Shown here piece after piece: positions 12,297-58,483 of a stretch of 64,000 nt of DNA. How positions within the stretch are numbered: position 1 is the stretch's first letter; each line of letters starts with the position of its first letter. The translations under genes and the position numbers were made by a program. Source of the DNA: Flectobacillus sp. BAB-3569 (GTDB lineage Bacteria; Bacteroidota; Bacteroidia; Cytophagales; Spirosomataceae); the NCBI RefSeq assembly GCF_002270355.1, contig NZ_NJFZ01000006.1, forward strand, positions 1 through 64,000, given 5' to 3'. Below the pieces are notes generated by a model. It was not told the DNA's origin. It searched no databases and was given only the letters and a program-made list of their open reading frames with translations.

Positions 12297-13982
12297 ATGA
12301 CAGAAGAAAAAGAAAAATCACAAGAGCGAATTCCCGCTAATTTTCTCGAACAAATCGTTGAGGAAGATATTACATCAGGAAAAAATGGTGGTCGTGTACA
12401 CACTCGTTTCCCTCCCGAGCCTAACGGTTATTTGCACATTGGTCATGCCAAATCTATTTGCTTGAACTTTGGGTTAGCTGACAAATTTGGTGGAAAAACA
12501 AACCTTCGCTTTGATGATACCAACCCTGTAACAGAAGATACAGAGTACGTAGAATCTATCAAAGCTGATGTGCGTTGGTTAGGTTTTGATTGGGAAAATG
12601 AGCTATATGCTTCTGACTACTTCGACCAGTTATATGAACTTGCAGTACAGCTAATCAAAAAGGGATTGGCGTATGTAGATGACCAAACATCGGAACAAAT
12701 TGCTACTCAAAAAGGAAATCCTAACATTCCTGGTGAGGAAAGCCCATATCGTTATCGCTCAGTTGAGGAAAATCTCGACTTGTTTGAACGTATGAAAAAC
12801 GGTGAATTTGAGGATGGTGCAAAAGTGCTTCGTGCCAAGGTAGATATGGCGCATCCTAACATGCACATGCGTGACCCTTTGATGTACCGTATCAAAAAGG
12901 CAAAACACCACCGCACTGGCGATAAATGGTGTATATATCCAATGTATGACTTTGCTCATGGGCAGTCGGATTCGATTGAGAAAATTACTCACTCGATTTG
13001 TACGTTGGAGTTTGACGTACACCGTCCGTTGTATGATTGGTTTATCGAAAAATTAGATACTTTCCCATCGCATCAATACGAATTTGCTCGTTTGAACCTT
13101 ACACATACGGTAATGAGTAAAAGACGTTTGTTGCAGTTGGTAAAAGAAAATATTGTATCAGGATGGGATGACCCTCGTATGCCGACTATCTCAGGCTTGC
13201 GTCGTCGTGGATTTACACCTGCTTCAATTCGTAACTTCTGTGATAAAATTGGGGTGGCAAAACGCGATAACCTTATCGATGTAGGGGTATTGGAATTCTG
13301 TGTGCGCGAGGATTTGAATAAAATTGCGACACGTGTAATGGCAGTACTTGATCCAGTGAAATTAGTGATTACTAATTATCCTGAAGGACAAGTAGAAACT
13401 TTACAAGTAGAAAATAACCCAGAAGATATCAACAGTGGTCATCGTGATGTACCATTTAGTCGTGAGGTATATATCGAGCGTGAAGACTTTATGGAAGTTC
13501 CACCGAAGAAATTCTTCCGTTTGGGACCTGGTTTGATGGTTCGTTTGAAAGGAGCTTACATTGTAAAATGTGAAGATTTTGTTAAAGACGAATTCGGAAA
13601 TATTACCGAAATTCACTGTACTTATATTCCAGAAAGTCGTTCGGGGTCGGATACCTCTGGTATTCATGTAAAAGGAACCATTCACTGGGTATCTGCACAA
13701 CATGCAGTACCAGCAGAAGTGCGAGTTTACGACCGTTTGTTGATTTTGGAAGACGCTTCTCAAGTAGGAGACGACTTCAAGAAATTTATCAATCCTGATT
13801 CGTTGACTGTCTTAGAAAATGTATTAGTCGAACCAAGCCTTAAAGAAGCTGAGTTAGGAAAGAACTATCAATTTATCCGTAAAGGGTATTATTGTTTAGA
13901 CAAAGATTCTACTGGAGATAAATTAGTTTTCAATAGAACCGTTGGTTTGAAAGATGCTTGGGCAAAAGAAAAAAATAAGTAA
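12297..13982 (+). CDS. glnS: Glutaminyl-tRNA synthetase
   Basis: The 561-residue cytoplasmic enzyme charges tRNA-Gln with glutamine. It is a class I synthetase with the HIGH motif in [15 protein letters not shown] (about residues 40-54), the GlnRS/GluRS block LRFDDTNP, and the KMSKS equivalent VMSKRRL near residue 275. Catalytic-domain words [19 protein letters not shown] follow GlnRS, not GluRS. The C-terminal anticodon-binding barrels (about 340-555) are complete. A direct GlnRS means the organism need not use the GatCAB route for Gln-tRNA. A hairpin terminator follows at 14021. Confidence 0.95.
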
Positions 13983-16128: not shown

Positions 16129-16244
16129 TGTGTTATGCTTTATGAATTTTCTGTATCTTACAAATATTTTTTATTCGTTTGATTATCAGAAAATTACAAC
16201 TTGCTGATAAGTCCGAACGAATATATATTTCCCAAATAGGACTG

Positions 16245-16276
16245 CAAAGGTAGTAAATGTTTGAGTTTTAGACAAA
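16245..16276 (-). promoter_or_regulatory. Bacteroidota-type promoter of rpmG-DUF4295
   Basis: On the minus strand a -33 TTTG (16276-16273) is followed after 20 bases by TACCTTTG (16252-16245), a very good match to TTTG-N19-21-TAnnTTTG. The predicted start of transcription leaves a 5' leader of about 110 bases before rpmG. Confidence 0.75.
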
Positions 16277-16403
16277 TATGTTTTTGAAAAAACTTATGCT
16301 TTCAAGGCGTTTTTTCAGAAAATAAGAGAAAATTTGACGTTTGGGGACTAAATTTGCTTCTCCGCTGTTCTTTATCTAAGATAAAATTTACGAATTTTAC
16401 GGC

Positions 16404-17618
16404 ATGAAGCAAATCCAATACCAATACGACCCTGAGCATTTTAAACGTTCAGACCCCAATAAGTATAATTCCTCGAAACTCAAATCGGAAGAAATGATTT
16501 TGTCGCTTGGGCCTCAACACCCTTCGACTCACGGTGTTTTGCGTTTAGAGGTAATCTCTGATGGTGAGCTGATTGTGGATGTAGTTCCTCACTTGGGTTA
16601 TCTGCATAGATGCTTTGAGAAACATGCTGAATCTTTAGCTTTTGGACAGACTATTCCCTATATCGACCGTTTGGATTATCTGGCAGCGATGAATTCTGAG
16701 CATGCCTATGTGATGGGAGTAGAGAAAATGCTTGATTTGGAGGGTAAACTTCCCAAACGTATTGAATATATCCGTGTACTGGTAGCCGAACTCAATCGTT
16801 TGGCATCGCATTTTGTTGCCATAGGCACGTATGGCTTAGATATTGGGGCATATACTTCATTTTTGTGGCTCATGCGCGACCGCGAGCATATTCAGCGGTT
16901 GCTCGAATGGCTTTGTGGTGCTCGTATGCTTTACAACTACATTTGGATTGGAGGCTTGTTTTATGATTTACCTGTTGGTTTTGAAGAGCGTTGTTTGGAG
17001 TTTATCAATTACCTCAAGCCCAAAATGGTTGAGATTCGTGAGTTGATTATTGAAAACAAAATCTTTGTGCAACGTACGGCTAATATTGGTATTTTACCTC
17101 TGGACTTGGCTATTAACTACGGTTGTACAGGGCCTGTGCTTCGTGGTTCGGGCTTAAAATTTGACCTCCGTCGTGTCGATGGCTATTCTGTATATCCAGA
17201 ACTTGATTTTGAAATTCCAGTAGGAAAAGGAGAAATGGGTACTGTGGGAGACTGCTGGGATAGAAATTTTGTGAGAGTATTAGAATGTGATGAATCAATC
17301 AAGATTATCGAGCAATGCCTTGTACAGTTGATGGGCGATCACAAACGTACTCGTGATTTTAATCCACAGGCTATGCTTCCTAAAAAAGTACGTCCTCAGG
17401 CGATGGATTTATATTTTAGAGCTGAGAATCCTAAAGGTGAACTTGGCTTTTTCTTCAGAACAGACGGTCGCTCAGATGTACCATTACGTGTAAAAGCAAG
17501 AGCTTGTTCGTTTCATAATTTATCGGTAGTGCCCGAAATTAGTCGTGGTGCTATGTTAGCAGACTTGGTGGCTATTGTTGGTTCTGTAGATTTGGTGATG
17601 GGTGAAGTCGACCGATAG
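16404..17618 (+). CDS. nuoD: NADH-quinone oxidoreductase subunit D
   Basis: The 404-residue 49-kDa-type subunit of complex I lies at the quinone site. It has the family opening LGPQHPSTHGVLRLEVISDG (about residues 35-54), HLGYLHRCFEKHAE, PYIDRLDYLAAMNSEHAY, and the C-terminal SFHNLSVVPEISRGAMLAD and IVGSVDLVMGEVDR. The [NiFe]-hydrogenase-like Cys ligands are absent, as normal for NuoD. It is not fused to NuoC. Its neighbours are rpmG (divergent) and a thioesterase, with no other nuo gene near; nuoA is about 9.4 kb upstream. Confidence 0.96.
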   Translation: MKQIQYQYDPEHFKRSDPNKYNSSKLKSEEMILSLGPQHPSTHGVLRLEVISDGELIVDVVPHLGYLHRCFEKHAESLAFGQTIPYIDRLDYLAAMNSEHAYVMGVEKMLDLEGKLPKRIEYIRVLVAELNRLASHFVAIGTYGLDIGAYTSFLWLMRDREHIQRLLEWLCGARMLYNYIWIGGLFYDLPVGFEERCLEFINYLKPKMVEIRELIIENKIFVQRTANIGILPLDLAINYGCTGPVLRGSGLKFDLRRVDGYSVYPELDFEIPVGKGEMGTVGDCWDRNFVRVLECDESIKIIEQCLVQLMGDHKRTRDFNPQAMLPKKVRPQAMDLYFRAENPKGELGFFFRTDGRSDVPLRVKARACSFHNLSVVPEISRGAMLADLVAIVGSVDLVMGEVDR

Positions 17619-52856: not shown

Positions 52857-54635
52857 CTATGAAATTCGTTGGCTTTCTTTCTGGTGCTTCCATAGTTCTT
52901 GGAAAATAGCACTGTTGGCTAGCAGATACTCAAAACTGCCTTCATCTACAATATGTCCTTTTTCGAGGATATATACATAATCAAACTGGCTCAGCAAATG
53001 CAATCTGTGCAGAGTGGATAGCACAGCTTTTCCTTCAAATTCTTTAAATAATTGCTGATAAATCAAGACTTCTGTTTTTGGGTCAACACTACTGGTTGGT
53101 TCGTCGAGCAGTATAATTTGTGAGCTACGTGCTGCCAATACCCCGCGTGCCAAAGCCAAGCGCTGTTTTTGTCCTCCCGATAGGTTTACGCCCTTTTCTT
53201 GAATATTGGACTGTAAGCCATTTGGCAATTGCTTGATCACGTCGGTAAACTGGGCTACATCACAAACTTGTAAAATATCAGACTCCTCAAATGGCAATCC
53301 TAGCGTGATATTGTATTCGATGGTATTCTCAAAAATTTCTGGTTCTTGTGGAAATAGCGTAACCGTTTCGGCCAAGATACCAATATCATCTTTTGTCTTA
53401 CCGTCTAAGTCTATTTGAACACCTTTTTCGGGTTCATACAGTCCACGAAGCAAAGCCAAAAGCGTACTTTTTCCAGAGCCACTTTCTCCAATAAAAGCAA
53501 TACGTTTTCCTTTGTTGATTTGAATTTTGAGCTGATGTAGTGCCTGAGATTTATTTTCCAGACTATAATTTTCTTGATGTGAAAAATTTAGGTTAGAAAT
53601 CGTCAAGGCAGACCAGTTTGCTGGAAGGCTTTCTTCCTCTTCAGGACGATGATGTTCGCGATATGCCTGCGAAATAGTACGAGCTGTTTGCACATCAGTA
53701 TTATGCTGAATAATTTGGGTATAAAGCCAAGCCACATCATGAAAGACACTCGTAAAGTTGTTGACATATCCTAATAATGTCACTAAACCTCCTACCATAA
53801 ACACTTTACCAACTTCCCAATTTTGATAAACATAACCTACCGTAATTACAACATAAATCAATCCCACAAGCATATCTGCCACAAACCATTTCCACTCGTT
53901 GATGACCACCTGCTTACGGAAGGGCGCAAAAACATGTTTGATTTTGTCACTTAAACTTTGCTCCATTTGTTTTTCCAAACGAAGTGTAATCACCGTAATA
54001 ATATTCGAAAGACTATCAAAAAGCGTGGAAGATACCACGTGCTCACGCTCGTTGGTTTCGTCGAGTGCTTTGATAAAAGGTTTATCAAACTGAGCAATGA
54101 CCCAAATGGTAAAAATGCCCAAAAGCACACCAATGGCACCAAACAAAGGCGAAAAGTAAAGCATCGCAATGAATGAAAAGAAGAATTTGGAAAAGGCATG
54201 CAAATACATAAAGCCATCCTGAAAAAAAGTCTTTAGGGCTTCATATGCTTTACGAATACGGTTGATCGTCGCACCGCTATGATTATCTTGGTGCCACTTT
54301 ACAGGCAAATGTAGCGTTTGATGATAAAGCTCATGCAGAAAGTTACGGCTAAGATTAAAAGCCAAACTGCGTTCCATTACGCGTGCTGTACCATGAAAAG
54401 TCCATTCTACAAAGCGCAATAGCAAAAAGCCTATCCCATAAATCCATGTGTCTTTGAGGACATCCATACCTTTGAGCTGGATTTTGTCGATAAACCAACC
54501 GTACCAGATAGGATTGAGAGAAAAAATAATGTTTGCGACAATAAAGAGCGCATATACCAACAAGAAGCGTTTTTTTTCTTGTCGAGCATATTGCCATGCA
54601 ATTTTTAAAAGAGAAATATAAGGATTGTTTGCCAT
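52857..54635 (-). CDS. ABC exporter, fused membrane and ATPase domains
   Basis: The 592-residue half-transporter has six predicted membrane helices (about residues 1-310) and a C-terminal ATPase with Walker A FIGESGSGKSTLLALL, signature NLSGGQKQRLALARG, Walker B QIILLDEPTSSVD and the H-loop STLHRLHLL (LHRLH in place of the usual THRL). It resembles MsbA/bacteriocin-type exporters that work as dimers. The substrate is unknown. It stands alone with a convergent AraC gene. The start ATG at 54635 gives a good N terminus MANNPYISLLKIAWQYARQE. Confidence 0.92.
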   Translation of the reverse strand: MANNPYISLLKIAWQYARQEKKRFLLVYALFIVANIIFSLNPIWYGWFIDKIQLKGMDVLKDTWIYGIGFLLLRFVEWTFHGTARVMERSLAFNLSRNFLHELYHQTLHLPVKWHQDNHSGATINRIRKAYEALKTFFQDGFMYLHAFSKFFFSFIAMLYFSPLFGAIGVLLGIFTIWVIAQFDKPFIKALDETNEREHVVSSTLFDSLSNIITVITLRLEKQMEQSLSDKIKHVFAPFRKQVVINEWKWFVADMLVGLIYVVITVGYVYQNWEVGKVFMVGGLVTLLGYVNNFTSVFHDVAWLYTQIIQHNTDVQTARTISQAYREHHRPEEEESLPANWSALTISNLNFSHQENYSLENKSQALHQLKIQINKGKRIAFIGESGSGKSTLLALLRGLYEPEKGVQIDLDGKTKDDIGILAETVTLFPQEPEIFENTIEYNITLGLPFEESDILQVCDVAQFTDVIKQLPNGLQSNIQEKGVNLSGGQKQRLALARGVLAARSSQIILLDEPTSSVDPKTEVLIYQQLFKEFEGKAVLSTLHRLHLLSQFDYVYILEKGHIVDEGSFEYLLANSAIFQELWKHQKESQRIS

Positions 54636-54948: not shown

Positions 54949-54979
54949 TTTGTATAGTCAATAATTTTACATAGCTTTG
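54949..54979 (+). promoter_or_regulatory. Promoter of the leuA leader transcript
   Basis: A -33 TTTG (54949-54952) and TAGCTTTG (54972-54979, TAnnTTTG) are 19 bases apart, matching the Bacteroidota promoter pattern. The predicted transcription start falls within a few bases of the leader ATG at 54984, so the leader peptide might be translated from a nearly leaderless RNA. Confidence 0.7.
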
Positions 54980-54983
54980 ATAT

Positions 54984-55040
54984 ATGGAAAATAATAGCAC
55001 AAATAAATCTTTTATCATCATTAAGCTCCTCGCTGATTAG
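54984..55040 (+). CDS. leuA leader peptide (attenuation)
   Basis: This 18-codon ORF ends KSF-III-K-LL-AD before TAG, that is three Ile codons (ATC ATC ATT), one Lys and two Leu codons (CTC CTC) near its end. Ile- and Leu-rich short ORFs before branched-chain amino acid genes are leader peptides, in which ribosome stalling on scarce aminoacyl-tRNA selects the RNA fold. The stop codon overlaps by one base the antiterminator strand beginning at 55040. A ribosome finishing at TAG would cover that strand and allow the terminator; one stalled at the Ile codons would leave it free. Confidence 0.75.
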   Translation: MENNSTNKSFIIIKLLAD

Positions 55041-55105
55041 TGAGACAAGGTTCTTTTGTGCAAATCGAAGCCTTTTCTCACAACCAACTGAGGAAAGGTT
55101 TTTTT
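55040..55105 (+). promoter_or_regulatory. leuA transcription attenuator (antiterminator/terminator)
   Basis: Strand 2, GTGAGACAAGG (55040-55050), can pair with strand 3, CCTTTTCTCAC (55071-55081), ten of eleven positions matching. Strand 3 can instead pair with strand 4, TGAGGAAAGG (55089-55098), which is followed by seven T (55099-55105). The two folds exclude each other, as in classic amino acid operon attenuators. The leuA start codon lies 72 bases downstream. This predicts leuA expression when Leu or Ile is limiting. Confidence 0.75.
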
Positions 55106-55176
55106 ATACCCATTGCAACGACTATTTTGTAACCAAGAAACAACATTTAACAAATCATCAATCCCTTTAAAAAGTC

Positions 55177-56316
55177 ATGAGTCAAAGAATTCAAATATTC
55201 GACACAACATTGCGTGATGGCGAGCAAGTTCCGGGCTGTCAATTGAACACAGAAGAAAAATTGCAGGTTGCTGAACAATTAGAATTACTTGGGGTAGATA
55301 TTATTGAAGCTGGTTTTCCAATTTCATCTCCAGGTGATTTCCGTTCTGTAGAGGAAATTGCGAAACTCGTGAAGAATGCCACAGTTTGTGGTTTGACTCG
55401 TGCTAAAAAAGAGGATATTGATGCAGCTGCTGCAGCTTTGAAACATGCCAAAAGACCACGTATCCACACAGGTATCGGTTCTTCGGATGTACACATTCAG
55501 TACAAATTTAATTCAACTCGTGAAAAAATCATCGAACAAGGCGTTTGGGCAGTAAAATATGCTAAAAGCTTTGTTGAAGATGTAGAGTTTTTTGCAGAAG
55601 ATGCGGGTCGTGCAGATTTAGCATTTTTGGCTCAATTGACAGAAGCTGTTATTGCCGCAGGTGCTACAGTAGTAAACTTGCCAGATACAACAGGTTATTT
55701 GTTGCCAAACCAAATGCATGAGCGTATTAGCTACTTATTCGAAAATGTTTCGAATATTCACCAAGCTACGATCTCGATGCACAACCACAATGACTTGGGC
55801 TTAGCTACTGCTAATACCATTGCAGGTATACAAGCAGGAGCTCGTCAGGTAGAGGTTACCATCAACGGTATCGGTGAAAGAGCTGGTAATACTTCATTGG
55901 AAGAAGTTGCTATGATTTTGAACGTACATAAAGGTTTAGGTTTCGAAACAGGTATCAACCCTAAATTTTTGTACCCAACTTCATTGATGGTTTCTAACTT
56001 GATGGGTATGCCAGTACAGGCAAACAAAGCAGTAGTTGGTGCTAATGCTTTTGCTCACTCGTCGGGTATTCACCAAGATGGTTTCTTGAAGCATGCGCAA
56101 AACTACGAAATCATGAATCCTGAAGATGTAGGTGTGCCTTCTTCAGCCATCGTTTTGACTTCTCGTTCGGGGCGTGCTGCTTTGCGTCACCGTTTACAAT
56201 TATTAGGTTTTGCTTTTGAAAAACCAGAACTTGACAAATTGTACACACGTTTCTTGTTGATGGCCGATGAGCGTAAGCAATTAAACGACGAAGATTTGAA
56301 AGAATTGGTAGGCTAA
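55177..56316 (+). CDS. leuA: 2-isopropylmalate synthase (short form)
   Basis: The 379-residue enzyme joins acetyl-CoA and 2-ketoisovalerate in the first step of leucine synthesis. It has [16 protein letters not shown] (residues 8-23), the metal-binding [10 protein letters not shown] (about 202-211), [15 protein letters not shown] and the [13 protein letters not shown] block (about 293-305). The C-terminal leucine-binding regulatory domain of the roughly 510-residue form is missing, so feedback inhibition through that domain is not expected; control is probably at the attenuator upstream. Related enzymes (homocitrate or citramalate synthase) share the motifs, but the Leu/Ile leader supports leuA. 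No leuBCD or ilv genes follow. Confidence 0.9.
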
Positions 56317-56534: not shown

Positions 56535-58483
56535 TTGAAGATTATGTCAAAGTCACTATCTTATCTGTTTACCATTTTATTGAGCTTGATGCTTATTGAC
56601 GTGCCAGCTCAGGATATTAGTAAATATAAGTTTTTAGCTTATGGCGCATTACCAGCTTGGACTGGCGTAGCTGTAGACTGGCATACCTCTCCCAAGGTGT
56701 ATATCTATGACCCCAAAGAAACCCGTGGGCATGCCGAGTTTGTCAATAAAAAGCTTGGTCGAGCCATTGATTTTAAACAGTTTAAAACATTGGCTTCAAC
56801 CTCAAAAACACGCCAATATCTTCCTTTTTTGTGTATGACCTCAGTGCGAAACCCTATGCAGTAGGGGCACAGAAATATACTTATGCTGTAAGGGTTGAAG
56901 ATTATTCTTATGACGATACTCCTGCCTTAATGGCAAATGATATCATAAAGCTTACCCAACTAATATCAGCTACTTACAAGCAGTTTAAGGGAAAGCCTTT
57001 GGTGATAGTCAATACCAAAGAAAAGCATATTTTGAGTCAGCAGGTATTAGAGCCTTTTCTCAAAAAACACCAGTTCAATACCGCTGTGCCGATGAATCTT
57101 ATCAAGCATTTTGATGGATTTAAAATCGAGGTGCTCAATGAGGTTGTAGCAGTGGGACGGTTAGTGCATGTCAAAAATGAGAAAGAAATGGTAAAGCTGA
57201 CTCCACAAGATATTGCAATTTTTGAACATATTCCAGAAAGAGTGCCACCATTAGCGGGTATTATTACGCTCGAACCCCAAACGCCACTTTCGCATGTAAA
57301 CCTTTTAGCCAAAAACCGCAAAACGCTTAATATTTCATTGACAAGCCTTTCGGCTTGGCCAGAGTTAAAGGCAAAAATTGGTCAAATAGTAGAAATAAAT
57401 CCAAAATTCCAGAAGCTGATTATCAAAACTGTTACGTCAGATTATGCGGCAAAATTTTGGAAAAATAATCAACCTCAAAAAGTAAATATTCCCAATCCTG
57501 AATTAACGTTTGAGTCTACCATTCCGCTCAATAAACATTTTAAGCAATATCAGAAAGTCAACTTAATTGGTGCCAAAGCCAATAATTATGCTTTGATTCA
57601 TGAGTTATTAGGCGAAGAATATGTTTTGCCTGCTTATGCGATTGGTTTTAAGCCGTATATGGATTTATTAACACAAGGAGCTGATAAAGAAATTAACTTT
57701 TTTCTGAGTAAAAAAAGCACTTTAAATAAGTCTGAAAAACAAAAAGCGCTTGCTCGAATTCGCAATGTGATTACCAAAAGTACACCAAGTGCGGCCATGC
57801 TCGAATCTCTGCGTGGGGTATTGAATAAGTATTTTGCAGGAAAAAAAGTAAAACTACGTAGTTCTACCAATTGTGAAGATTTACCCCAATTCAATGGCGC
57901 TGGGTTATATACTTCCAAAGGGTTTAATGTAGCTGATAACGATAAAGTTTTAGCCGAAAAAATCACAAAGGTCTATGCTTCTTTGTGGAATGATGAAGCA
58001 TTTGAGGAGCGCGAATATTTTGGAATAGATCATAAGAAAGTGGCAATGGCTATTTTGGTAAGTCCAGCCTTTGTTGATGAATTTGCCAATGGGGTGATTT
58101 TAGTAACGCCACACGAGAAGAGTGGAAATGTGGATGTGTTAGTCAATACCCAACCAGGCGAAAATGAAGTAGCAAATCCAAAGAAAAATGATAAACCAGA
58201 GGCTTTCCTAGTAGGACAAAATGGTGTAGTGAGTTCAATAAAAAGTCATTCAAATCTTGGTAAGGTATTTATCGGAAATGAACAAGTTTCAGCCTTGCTA
58301 AAAGTCTTGAGGATTAATGCCATCAAAGTACACCAAGCCTTAATGAATCGTCAGAAAGAATCAGGAGATAAGCAGCTTTACAGTACTGATATTGAATTTA
58401 AAGTAGTGAAAAATACCGATGGACAATACTTCTTGTATTTCAAGCAGGCTCGATTATTACGTAATCATATTTTGCCTGAGTAA
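56535..58483 (+). pseudogene. Secreted PEP/pyruvate-binding (PPDK_N-like) protein, split by a frameshift
   Basis: The first frame (56535-56864) has a signal peptide (SLSYLFTILLSLMLIDVPAQ) and HTSPKVYIYDPKETRGHAEF, then shifts after YLPF. The second frame continues FVYDLSAKPYAVG to 58483, with PPLAGIITLEPQTPLSHVNL and LAKNRKTLNISLTS (mobile swivelling domain), and KLRSSTNCEDLPQFNGAGLY in the ATP-grasp part, ending YFLYFKQARLLRNHILPE. Adding one T to the T6 run at 56825-56830 restores one protein of 649 residues. It is related to PEP synthase/glucan water dikinase nucleotide-binding domains, but an exported one has no clear role. Confidence 0.8.

Follow-up and report, generated by a model that had tools for sequence, protein, structure and literature searches.

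The leader of leuA in Flectobacillus sp. BAB-3569 has the organization of a classical ribosome-mediated transcription attenuator, and we consider it highly probable that it operates as one. Leader-peptide attenuation is textbook knowledge for Proteobacteria; for the present gene, the assignment, which had been made in the original prediction, is supported by the conservation of the leader in relatives, a paralogous copy upstream of ilvD in the same genome, covariation in the terminator and control codons that match the pathway. The switch would, very probably, turn leuA on only when leucine or isoleucine is short. The stretch of DNA analyzed (hereafter, the window) comprises the first 64,000 nucleotides of NZ_NJFZ01000006.1, a 505-kb contig of a 6.6-Mb genome.

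Rereading of the sequence located all the previously proposed elements, namely, the promoter pair, the open reading frame (ORF), the antiterminator, the terminator and the T run, at the positions assigned to them, all on the forward strand. The promoter is of the Bacteroidota type, with a −33 element TTTG (54949–54952), a spacer of 19 nt and a −7 box TAGCTTTG (consensus TAnnTTTG; 54972–54979), which is separated by a conserved gap of 4 nt from the ATG of a short, translated-looking ORF 5′ of the amino acid gene. This leader ORF (54984–55040) encodes MENNSTNKSFIIIKLLAD, is predicted to be leaderless and ends with TAG (55038–55040); an in-frame stop codon immediately 5′ of the ATG at 54984 makes that ATG the sole usual start codon. 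The ORF contains three consecutive Ile control codons, ATC ATC ATT (55014–55022), and two Leu control codons, CTC CTC (55026–55031), with CTC accounting for 36 of the 412 Leu codons (8.7%) in eight genes of the window. Abutting the leader stop codon is the antiterminator 5′ strand GTGAGACAAGG (55040–55050), 10 of the 11 positions of which pair with CCTTTTCTCAC (55071–55081), a shared strand that serves both as the antiterminator 3′ strand and as the terminator 5′ arm. In the competing terminator, 55071–55080 is wholly paired with 55089–55098, with one G-U pair (14 pairs in the computed fold), and the 3′ arm is followed by seven T (55099–55105), so that the 3′ half of the element spans 55089–55105. 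A third, protector-like helix can form between GCACAAA within the leader ORF (54997–55003) and TTTGTGC in the spacer (55055–55061). The leader stop codon is located 136 nt from the ATG of leuA (55177–56316).

From the promoter spacing, RNA polymerase is predicted to start at the leader ATG, or one or two nucleotides from it, in which case the ribosome would load on the first codon of the RNA. At a low supply of charged Leu- or Ile-tRNA, the ribosome would wait at the Ile and Leu codons (55014–55031), leaving 55040–55050 free to pair with 55071–55081, and this pairing would prevent formation of the terminator and allow transcription of leuA. When the amino acids are sufficient, the ribosome would reach the stop codon and cover 55040–55050, whereupon 55071–55080 would pair with 55089–55098 and, together with the T run, end transcription before leuA. 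If the leader is not translated at all, the third pairing (54997–55003 with 55055–55061) would exclude the antiterminator and also favor termination. Given the usual ribosome footprints, that is, the extent of RNA covered by a stalled ribosome, a stall on the Ile codons or on the first Leu codon would leave the antiterminator strand free, a stall on the second Leu codon would mask the initial few bases of that strand, and arrival at the stop codon would mask all of it. Translation, stalling, termination and the amino acid response are, in this scheme, what we infer from the arrangement of the sequence elements.

Each of the three competing folds (protector, antiterminator and terminator) is better than at least 199 of 200 shuffled sequences. 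Folded alone, the terminator reaches −16.7 kcal/mol (z −5.2) and the antiterminator −14.6 kcal/mol (z −3.25), in either case with 0 of 200 shuffles as good, and the protector-like fold reaches −20.5 kcal/mol (z −3.5; 1 of 200 as good). The fold of the whole leader has a z score of −4.7 (0 of 200 as good), and the stretch from the stop codon to the T run folds as the terminator (z −2.1; 5 of 200 as good). The leader-spacer pairing that forms the protector in the window surpasses 200 of 200 shuffles; by reading, it is kept in one relative (L035), and in another (L007) one pair is swapped and one broken. As a general feature of the family, the protector pairing was rejected, with 7 of 60 leaders placing it within the best 10 of 200 shuffles.

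Simple scans of the architecture can be read as favoring coincidence, with a random short ORF lying next to an ordinary terminator: when terminators were scored on the two strands of the window, 3 of 41, that of the leuA leader among them, had an ATG-started short ORF rich in Ile, Leu and Val at the right distance. A separate, simpler scan for terminators in the window did not list that of the leuA leader. A chance pairing is nevertheless refuted by the comparison with relatives, namely, by the conservation of the element, the paralogous copy at ilvD, the covariation and the match of codons to gene, and its probability is practically negligible.

The sequences preceding leuA were inspected by script and by eye in three sets of regions. 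The first set consisted of 83 rows, including near-duplicates, drawn from homologue-search loci (80 + 2) and the window, with two rows read on the wrong strand and five having less than 340 nt upstream, such that the full leader was not always visible. Within these limits, 16 of the 83 rows, window included, combined a Leu-rich short ORF and an antiterminator strand with a terminator rich in C (CCTTTTCTC, CCCTTTCTC or similar); one of these leaders (L093) was taken from separate readings. Read on the correct strand, L007, from the same genus, has the attenuator and L015 lacks it, and none was seen in the six Arcicella-labelled and six Aquirufa-labelled rows of this set. The locus labelled Roizmanbacteria (L092) carries a Leu-rich ORF with a different terminator. 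In the second set, the leuA attenuator was present in 29 of 40 regions, four of them weak (L120, L134, L139 and L147), and absent from 11; in the third, it was present in 7 of 18 regions and absent from 11. Among these last 11, L155, which is terminator-like but shows no distinct leader, was tallied as lacking the attenuator. The leader peptides include ISLLLLLS in Emticicia, LSLILLG in Siphonobacter and KTLLLLK in Sporocytophaga, a member of another family. The original prediction would have been contradicted had the short ORF or the alternative pairings lacked conservation in relatives; both, however, are found again in many Spirosomataceae and, outside that family, in Sporocytophaga. Counterparts of the leader ORF are found in L033, L085, L035 and L007, which together with the window constitute the five Flectobacillus-type leuA leaders, and, with longer 5′ untranslated regions (UTRs), in other genera. 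All five Flectobacillus-type leaders keep the promoter, the ATG, the frame, the xLL motif near the stop codon with its pair of Leu codons, the antiterminator strand and the terminator.

The structural alignment (A2) contained 31 of the 41 leuA leaders collected, near-duplicates (L085, L094, L135 and L158) and divergent sequences (L120, L121, L128, L139, L147 and L171) having been left out. In this alignment, the intrinsic terminator between the ORF and the gene pairs in 96.2% of the cells, both sides change in 8 of 12 pairs, and on each of five measures 0 of 500 shuffles are as high; on an earlier alignment (A1, n = 34), which retained most of the ten leaders dropped for A2, both sides change in 6 of 10 pairs. 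A covarying, T-tailed hairpin is difficult to reconcile with the possibility that the short ORF alters the translation of leuA, for instance by reinitiation, rather than termination. Leader ORFs located 11–14 bp before genes are overrepresented in Bacteroidetes, which the authors of that survey read as reinitiation (PMC4833913); here, the leader stop and the start of leuA are separated by the 136 nt noted above, and a strong terminator with its T run lies between them, making translational control highly improbable.

The antiterminator, which competes with the terminator for its 5′ arm, is conserved as a pairing and weak as covariation. It pairs in 83.8% of the A2 cells, compared with 40.6–63.7% for versions slid along the alignment, and this share of paired cells is reached by 7 of 500 shuffles. 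Both-side changes occur in 3 of 10 pairs, compared with 4 for the versions slid by −3 and −2; the count of such pairs is reached by 109 of 500 shuffles and the covariation score by 32 of 500. Little covariation is to be expected here because the shared strand is nearly invariant. The expectation that both hairpins would covary was borne out for the terminator and found weak for the antiterminator. In an alignment-free test from which kinship was not removed, the sum of the native antiterminator pairings surpassed 5,000 of 5,000 permutations for 79 leaders; with kinship likewise retained, 0 of 5,000 permutations were as good for the 41 leuA leaders and 185 of 5,000 for the 38 non-leuA leaders (those of ilv genes and one EamA gene). 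An earlier permutation run on the 41 leuA leaders gave 1 of 2,000 as good. At the level of single sequences, 1 of 200 shuffles was as good as the antiterminator of the window and 70 of 200 were as good as that of L035. Relative to the initial base of the leader stop, the antiterminator strand starts between −5 and +13 nt (median +1) in 60 of 60 leaders, with the search beginning 12 nt before the stop and a 61st leader (L147), which gave no leader ORF, uncounted. In all 60, the stop codon is placed such that a terminating ribosome would mask the antiterminator strand.

The output stage of riboswitches and T-boxes also consists of alternative terminator and antiterminator folds, so that a structure of this kind would equally serve an RNA that itself senses a metabolite or uncharged tRNA, with the short ORF being incidental. 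In the present case, however, the folds begin within the ORF, and the most consistent feature of the element is precisely an ORF with pathway-matched codons that ends at the antiterminator. In addition, no Rfam family reaches its gathering score here or in 15 related loci. Relaxing the E value to 5 gave six Rfam matches to this region, each well short of its cut-off: a PyrR site (E 4) and, on the opposite strand, snoRNA models. Neither the T-box model nor Leu_leader (RF00512) was among them. We accordingly regard direct sensing by the RNA as very improbable, and sensing by a translating ribosome as the preferred reading.

Under ribosome-mediated attenuation, the codons of the leader indicate what is sensed. 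End-product codons are concentrated in the leader ORFs, are conserved and match the gene downstream, being mostly Leu for leuA and Ile, Val and Leu for ilv genes. The share of Ile and Val among the Ile, Leu and Val codons is 0.30 in 39 leuA leaders versus 0.67 in 30 ilv leaders (Mann-Whitney p = 1.1e-10, a test that ignores relatedness, on hand-typed selections with near-duplicates). The leader of the window, with three Ile and two Leu codons, has a share of 0.60, which is atypical for leuA, lies nearer to the ilv group and speaks against a pure leucine sensor at this locus. Conservation of the Ile and Leu codons had been expected; Leu codons are indeed common to the leuA leaders, but the run of three Ile codons was seen only in the window and in two near-identical relatives (L033 and L085).

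A covariance model (R1) built only from the 31 leuA leaders found further leaders of this kind; counts are given at E 1e-5, and the matches below about 45 bits that were read were mostly plain terminators. In the genome of the window, the best match was not the leuA leader itself (E 8.9e-9) but a locus outside the window, C110:101113–101218 on the reverse strand (L174; E 6.6e-10), where ilvD begins 116 nt past the hairpin. The 464 aa of the gene product that the locus contains match TIGR00110 and related models, which identifies the gene as ilvD; its leader peptide, MKVSGFVNIILVLVILRCEV, contains Ile, Val and Leu. Among 200 genomes of the family, 104 had matches, 127 in total (including one pair that represents the two strands of a single hairpin), a lower bound given the strict filters. 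Of these matches, 77 lie 35–112 nt upstream of leuA on the same strand; the other 50 comprise 31 located elsewhere and 19 in genomes with no listed position of leuA. Twenty of the 50 were read (18 + 2), and 19 of them precede ilvD, as judged by likeness to the profile-identified ilvD rather than by individual scans, and one precedes an EamA transporter gene. Outside the family, leuA leaders were found in the Sporocytophaga genus (f15/g93; L207, L210, L212 and L218) and in f16 (L231), ilvD leaders in f5 (L220, L227, L228, L230 and L240), and ilvE leaders in f5 (L225 and L226), f14 (L208 and L214) and f19 (L223, L224, L229 and L239), with ilvE identified through profile models in a single protein from each of f14 and f19 and through likeness in the others. 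In 345 genomes of the phylum, R1 gave matches in 12, including those before ilvE and acetolactate-synthase-small-subunit-like genes of f25 and f26, the latter named by sequence likeness and a sub-threshold ACT match; one of the 12 matches (L273) resembles a plain terminator. The leaders of ilvD, ilvE and the EamA gene were thus all recovered by R1, none of them having been in its training set. The EamA-family gene that follows a similar attenuator in Pseudarcicella (L252; G005 C22), with the leader MIAIQLNIWSLLLRSKS, perhaps encodes an amino acid transporter.

A further possibility is that the leader yields a stable small RNA or peptide acting in trans, with the terminator as its end and control of leuA in cis secondary. 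The terminated transcript predicted here would be about 120 nt long, and there is a precedent in rnTrpL/peTrpL of Sinorhizobium meliloti, likewise a leaderless attenuator transcript (PMC7298713). The peptides, however, drift strongly between genera except in their content of Leu, Ile and Val, and the association of the element with leuA, ilvD and ilvE persists; a role in trans may exist in addition, but as the main function it is very improbable. Returning to attenuation in cis, we find it about equally balanced whether the leuA leader is one cassette of a hitherto undescribed branched-chain attenuation regulon of Bacteroidota, in which an ancestral attenuator would have been copied to leuA, ilvD, ilvE, an acetolactate-synthase-like gene and a transporter gene, retuned in its codons to Leu or to Ile, Val and Leu, placed in series of two or three units ahead of ilv genes in various lineages and, in Flectobacillus leuA, made leaderless. 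The leuA leader provides a concrete comparative case in Bacteroidota: the codons match the pathway, the covariance model recovers additional members, and no Rfam family reaches its cut-off on the element.

A dyad, GCGAA-NN-TTCGC, was observed within 90 nt upstream of the leader start in 10 of 11 ilvD leaders and 25 of 41 leuA leaders; the window does not have it. It is found, for instance, at 1648–1635 of L174 (reverse strand) and in loci L121–L152 and L246–L263, and L146 has the dyad and no attenuator. The dyad is a candidate operator of a branched-chain regulator or, as another candidate, a 5′ RNA hairpin.

The genome of the window has single units at leuA and ilvD. In other Bacteroidota, 12 of 33 hand-picked loci were found by script to carry a series of two or three leader-plus-terminator units (L269, with three units, and L223, L224, L239, L265, L266, L268, L271, L272, L208, L214 and L257; L223/L224 and L208/L214 are near-duplicates), upstream of ilvE, ilvD or the acetolactate-synthase-small-subunit-like gene. 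The clearest series is that of L269, where three units precede ilvE; the first leader has a TTG start, and the last two, MKTNSNIIIISIIIRSFE and MKTNMNIIIISIIIRSFE, evidently stem from a recent duplication. Among these series, antiterminators were computed for L223, in each of its two units, and for L269, in the middle unit (L274) and the last. Second matches in f5 (L225 and L226) were not accepted as tandem units, the script having found no second leader. Salmonella mgtC senses other signals, and it differs from the serial units described here, which look alike and are rich in the same amino acids. Its tandem attenuators share with some of these relatives the presence of two leader ORFs in one leader (PMC3641672). 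If the proposed regulon is real, two or three like attenuators in series would constitute a cascade with a steeper or more graded response, and the effect of such an arrangement becomes testable.

The suggestion that the leader ORF is nearly leaderless is supported by the conserved promoter spacing. In Flavobacterium psychrophilum, TAnnTTTG was mapped at −12 to −5 (PMC9723704); applied to the window, this position predicts that transcription starts at 54984, the first nucleotide of the leader ATG. The ATG lies exactly 4 nt past the −7 box in all five Flectobacillus-type leuA leaders, L033 having been read separately from a survey of 53 leaders. In that survey, eight leaders had no box within 90 nt, and the others had it at 23–67 nt from the ATG except for five with the 4-nt spacing: the window, L085, L035, L007 and L252. 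The first four also have TTG exactly 19 nt 5′ of the −7 box; in L252, the TAnnTTTG box is 4 nt before the ATG, but there is no TTG at the usual spacing. The ilvD leaders of Flectobacillus have longer 5′ UTRs of 42–43 nt. Given the conserved 4-nt spacing, the leuA leader is likely to be translated from a leaderless RNA, a property that is probably conserved in the genus. Leaderless mRNAs account for 5.5% in F. psychrophilum (PMC9723704), and 5′ UTRs under 10 nt for about 3.7% in Bacteroides thetaiotaomicron (PMC7366714). The S. meliloti trpL leader is a precedent for a leaderless attenuator (PMC7298713): the rnTrpL transcript starts at the leader ATG, as reported there and only predicted here, with Trp in place of Leu and Ile as the amino acid. 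If our reading of the regulon is correct, the first codon of the RNA in Flectobacillus leuA is the start codon of the sensor, and it becomes testable whether such a leaderless start lets the ribosome follow the polymerase closely in a phylum that makes little use of Shine-Dalgarno sequences.

Among the closest known systems is the Leu_leader (RF00512; leuL) of Gammaproteobacteria, in which a short ORF with Leu codons and an antiterminator and terminator that share a strand also precede leuA. The differences lie in the type of promoter, in the predicted leaderless start and in the separation of leuA from leuC, leuD and leuB in Flectobacillus. Bacteroid-trp RNA is read as a trp leader attenuator. 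This motif (RF01692) is listed for Bacteroidetes (PMC2864571); it has no match at the leuA leader or, at E 0.001, anywhere in the genome of the window, and a relationship to it was rejected. The LEU element of Actinobacteria (PMC1262725) likewise has a leader ORF with a run of Leu codons before leuA, but was described as a pseudoknot whose base stem is formed between the Leu codons and the Shine-Dalgarno box of leuA, and not as a terminator hairpin. Within the phylum, "strong clues" for leader peptide attenuation before amino acid biosynthesis operons were noted in F. psychrophilum, a member of another order (PMC9723704). Beyond such general hints (PMC9723704; PMC7366714), the part of the open-access literature that was searched did not describe an attenuator of leuA or of ilv genes for any member of the phylum.

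The leuA gene encodes a short-form 2-isopropylmalate synthase of 379 aa. Its identity is 99% with the Flectobacillus longus protein (L033) and 92% with the Arcicella rosea one (L034), in keeping with a placement in Flectobacillus (Cytophagales, Spirosomataceae). The protein matches NF002086 with 590.6 bits, above the cut-off of 532, and TIGR00973 with 552.5, below the cut-off of 598.7 and over the first 376 of 494 positions; both models are matched over their first ~380 positions. Its Pfam content is limited to HMGL-like and HCS_D2, and the LeuA_dimer domain (PF08502) is absent. The original prediction spoke of a LeuA that had lost its leucine-binding domain; short-form LeuA is the better description, since the LeuA frames of the relatives listed are also short (~380–424 aa), with no room for PF08502. 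A protein identical (100%) to the LeuA of the window occurs in a record labelled Cellulophaga sp. BC115SP (L085), and one with 68% identity in a Roizmanbacteria-labelled metagenome-assembled genome (L092), both apparent mislabellings.

The leuA gene looks like a single-gene unit, the upstream ORF (52857–54635) being on the opposite strand and the next downstream ORF beginning at 56535. A paralogue encoded on C138 contains PF08502 and has citramalate synthase (CimA) as its best match, below the model cut-off; it is part of a leuC-leuD-cimA-leuB run. LeuB, LeuC and LeuD may therefore serve both leucine and citramalate-derived isoleucine synthesis, in which case leuA would be the leucine-specific step; this role, together with the lack of a feedback domain in LeuA, suggests a reason for the separate place of leuA. 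A second attenuator, 5′ of leuC in the same genome, was considered and rejected: the 606-nt gap has one scored hairpin with no Leu-rich ORF before it, by reading an ordinary terminator. In this assembly, the CimA-like paralogue (L153, 14555–16068) is split into two overlapping frames, through either a sequencing error or a real frameshift. The same locus contains two similar-looking short ORFs, one of 120 aa (13444–13806) that separates leuC from leuD and one of 123 aa (16164–16535) that separates the cimA-like gene from leuB; their products may be four-helix-bundle or 23S-intervening-sequence-like proteins.
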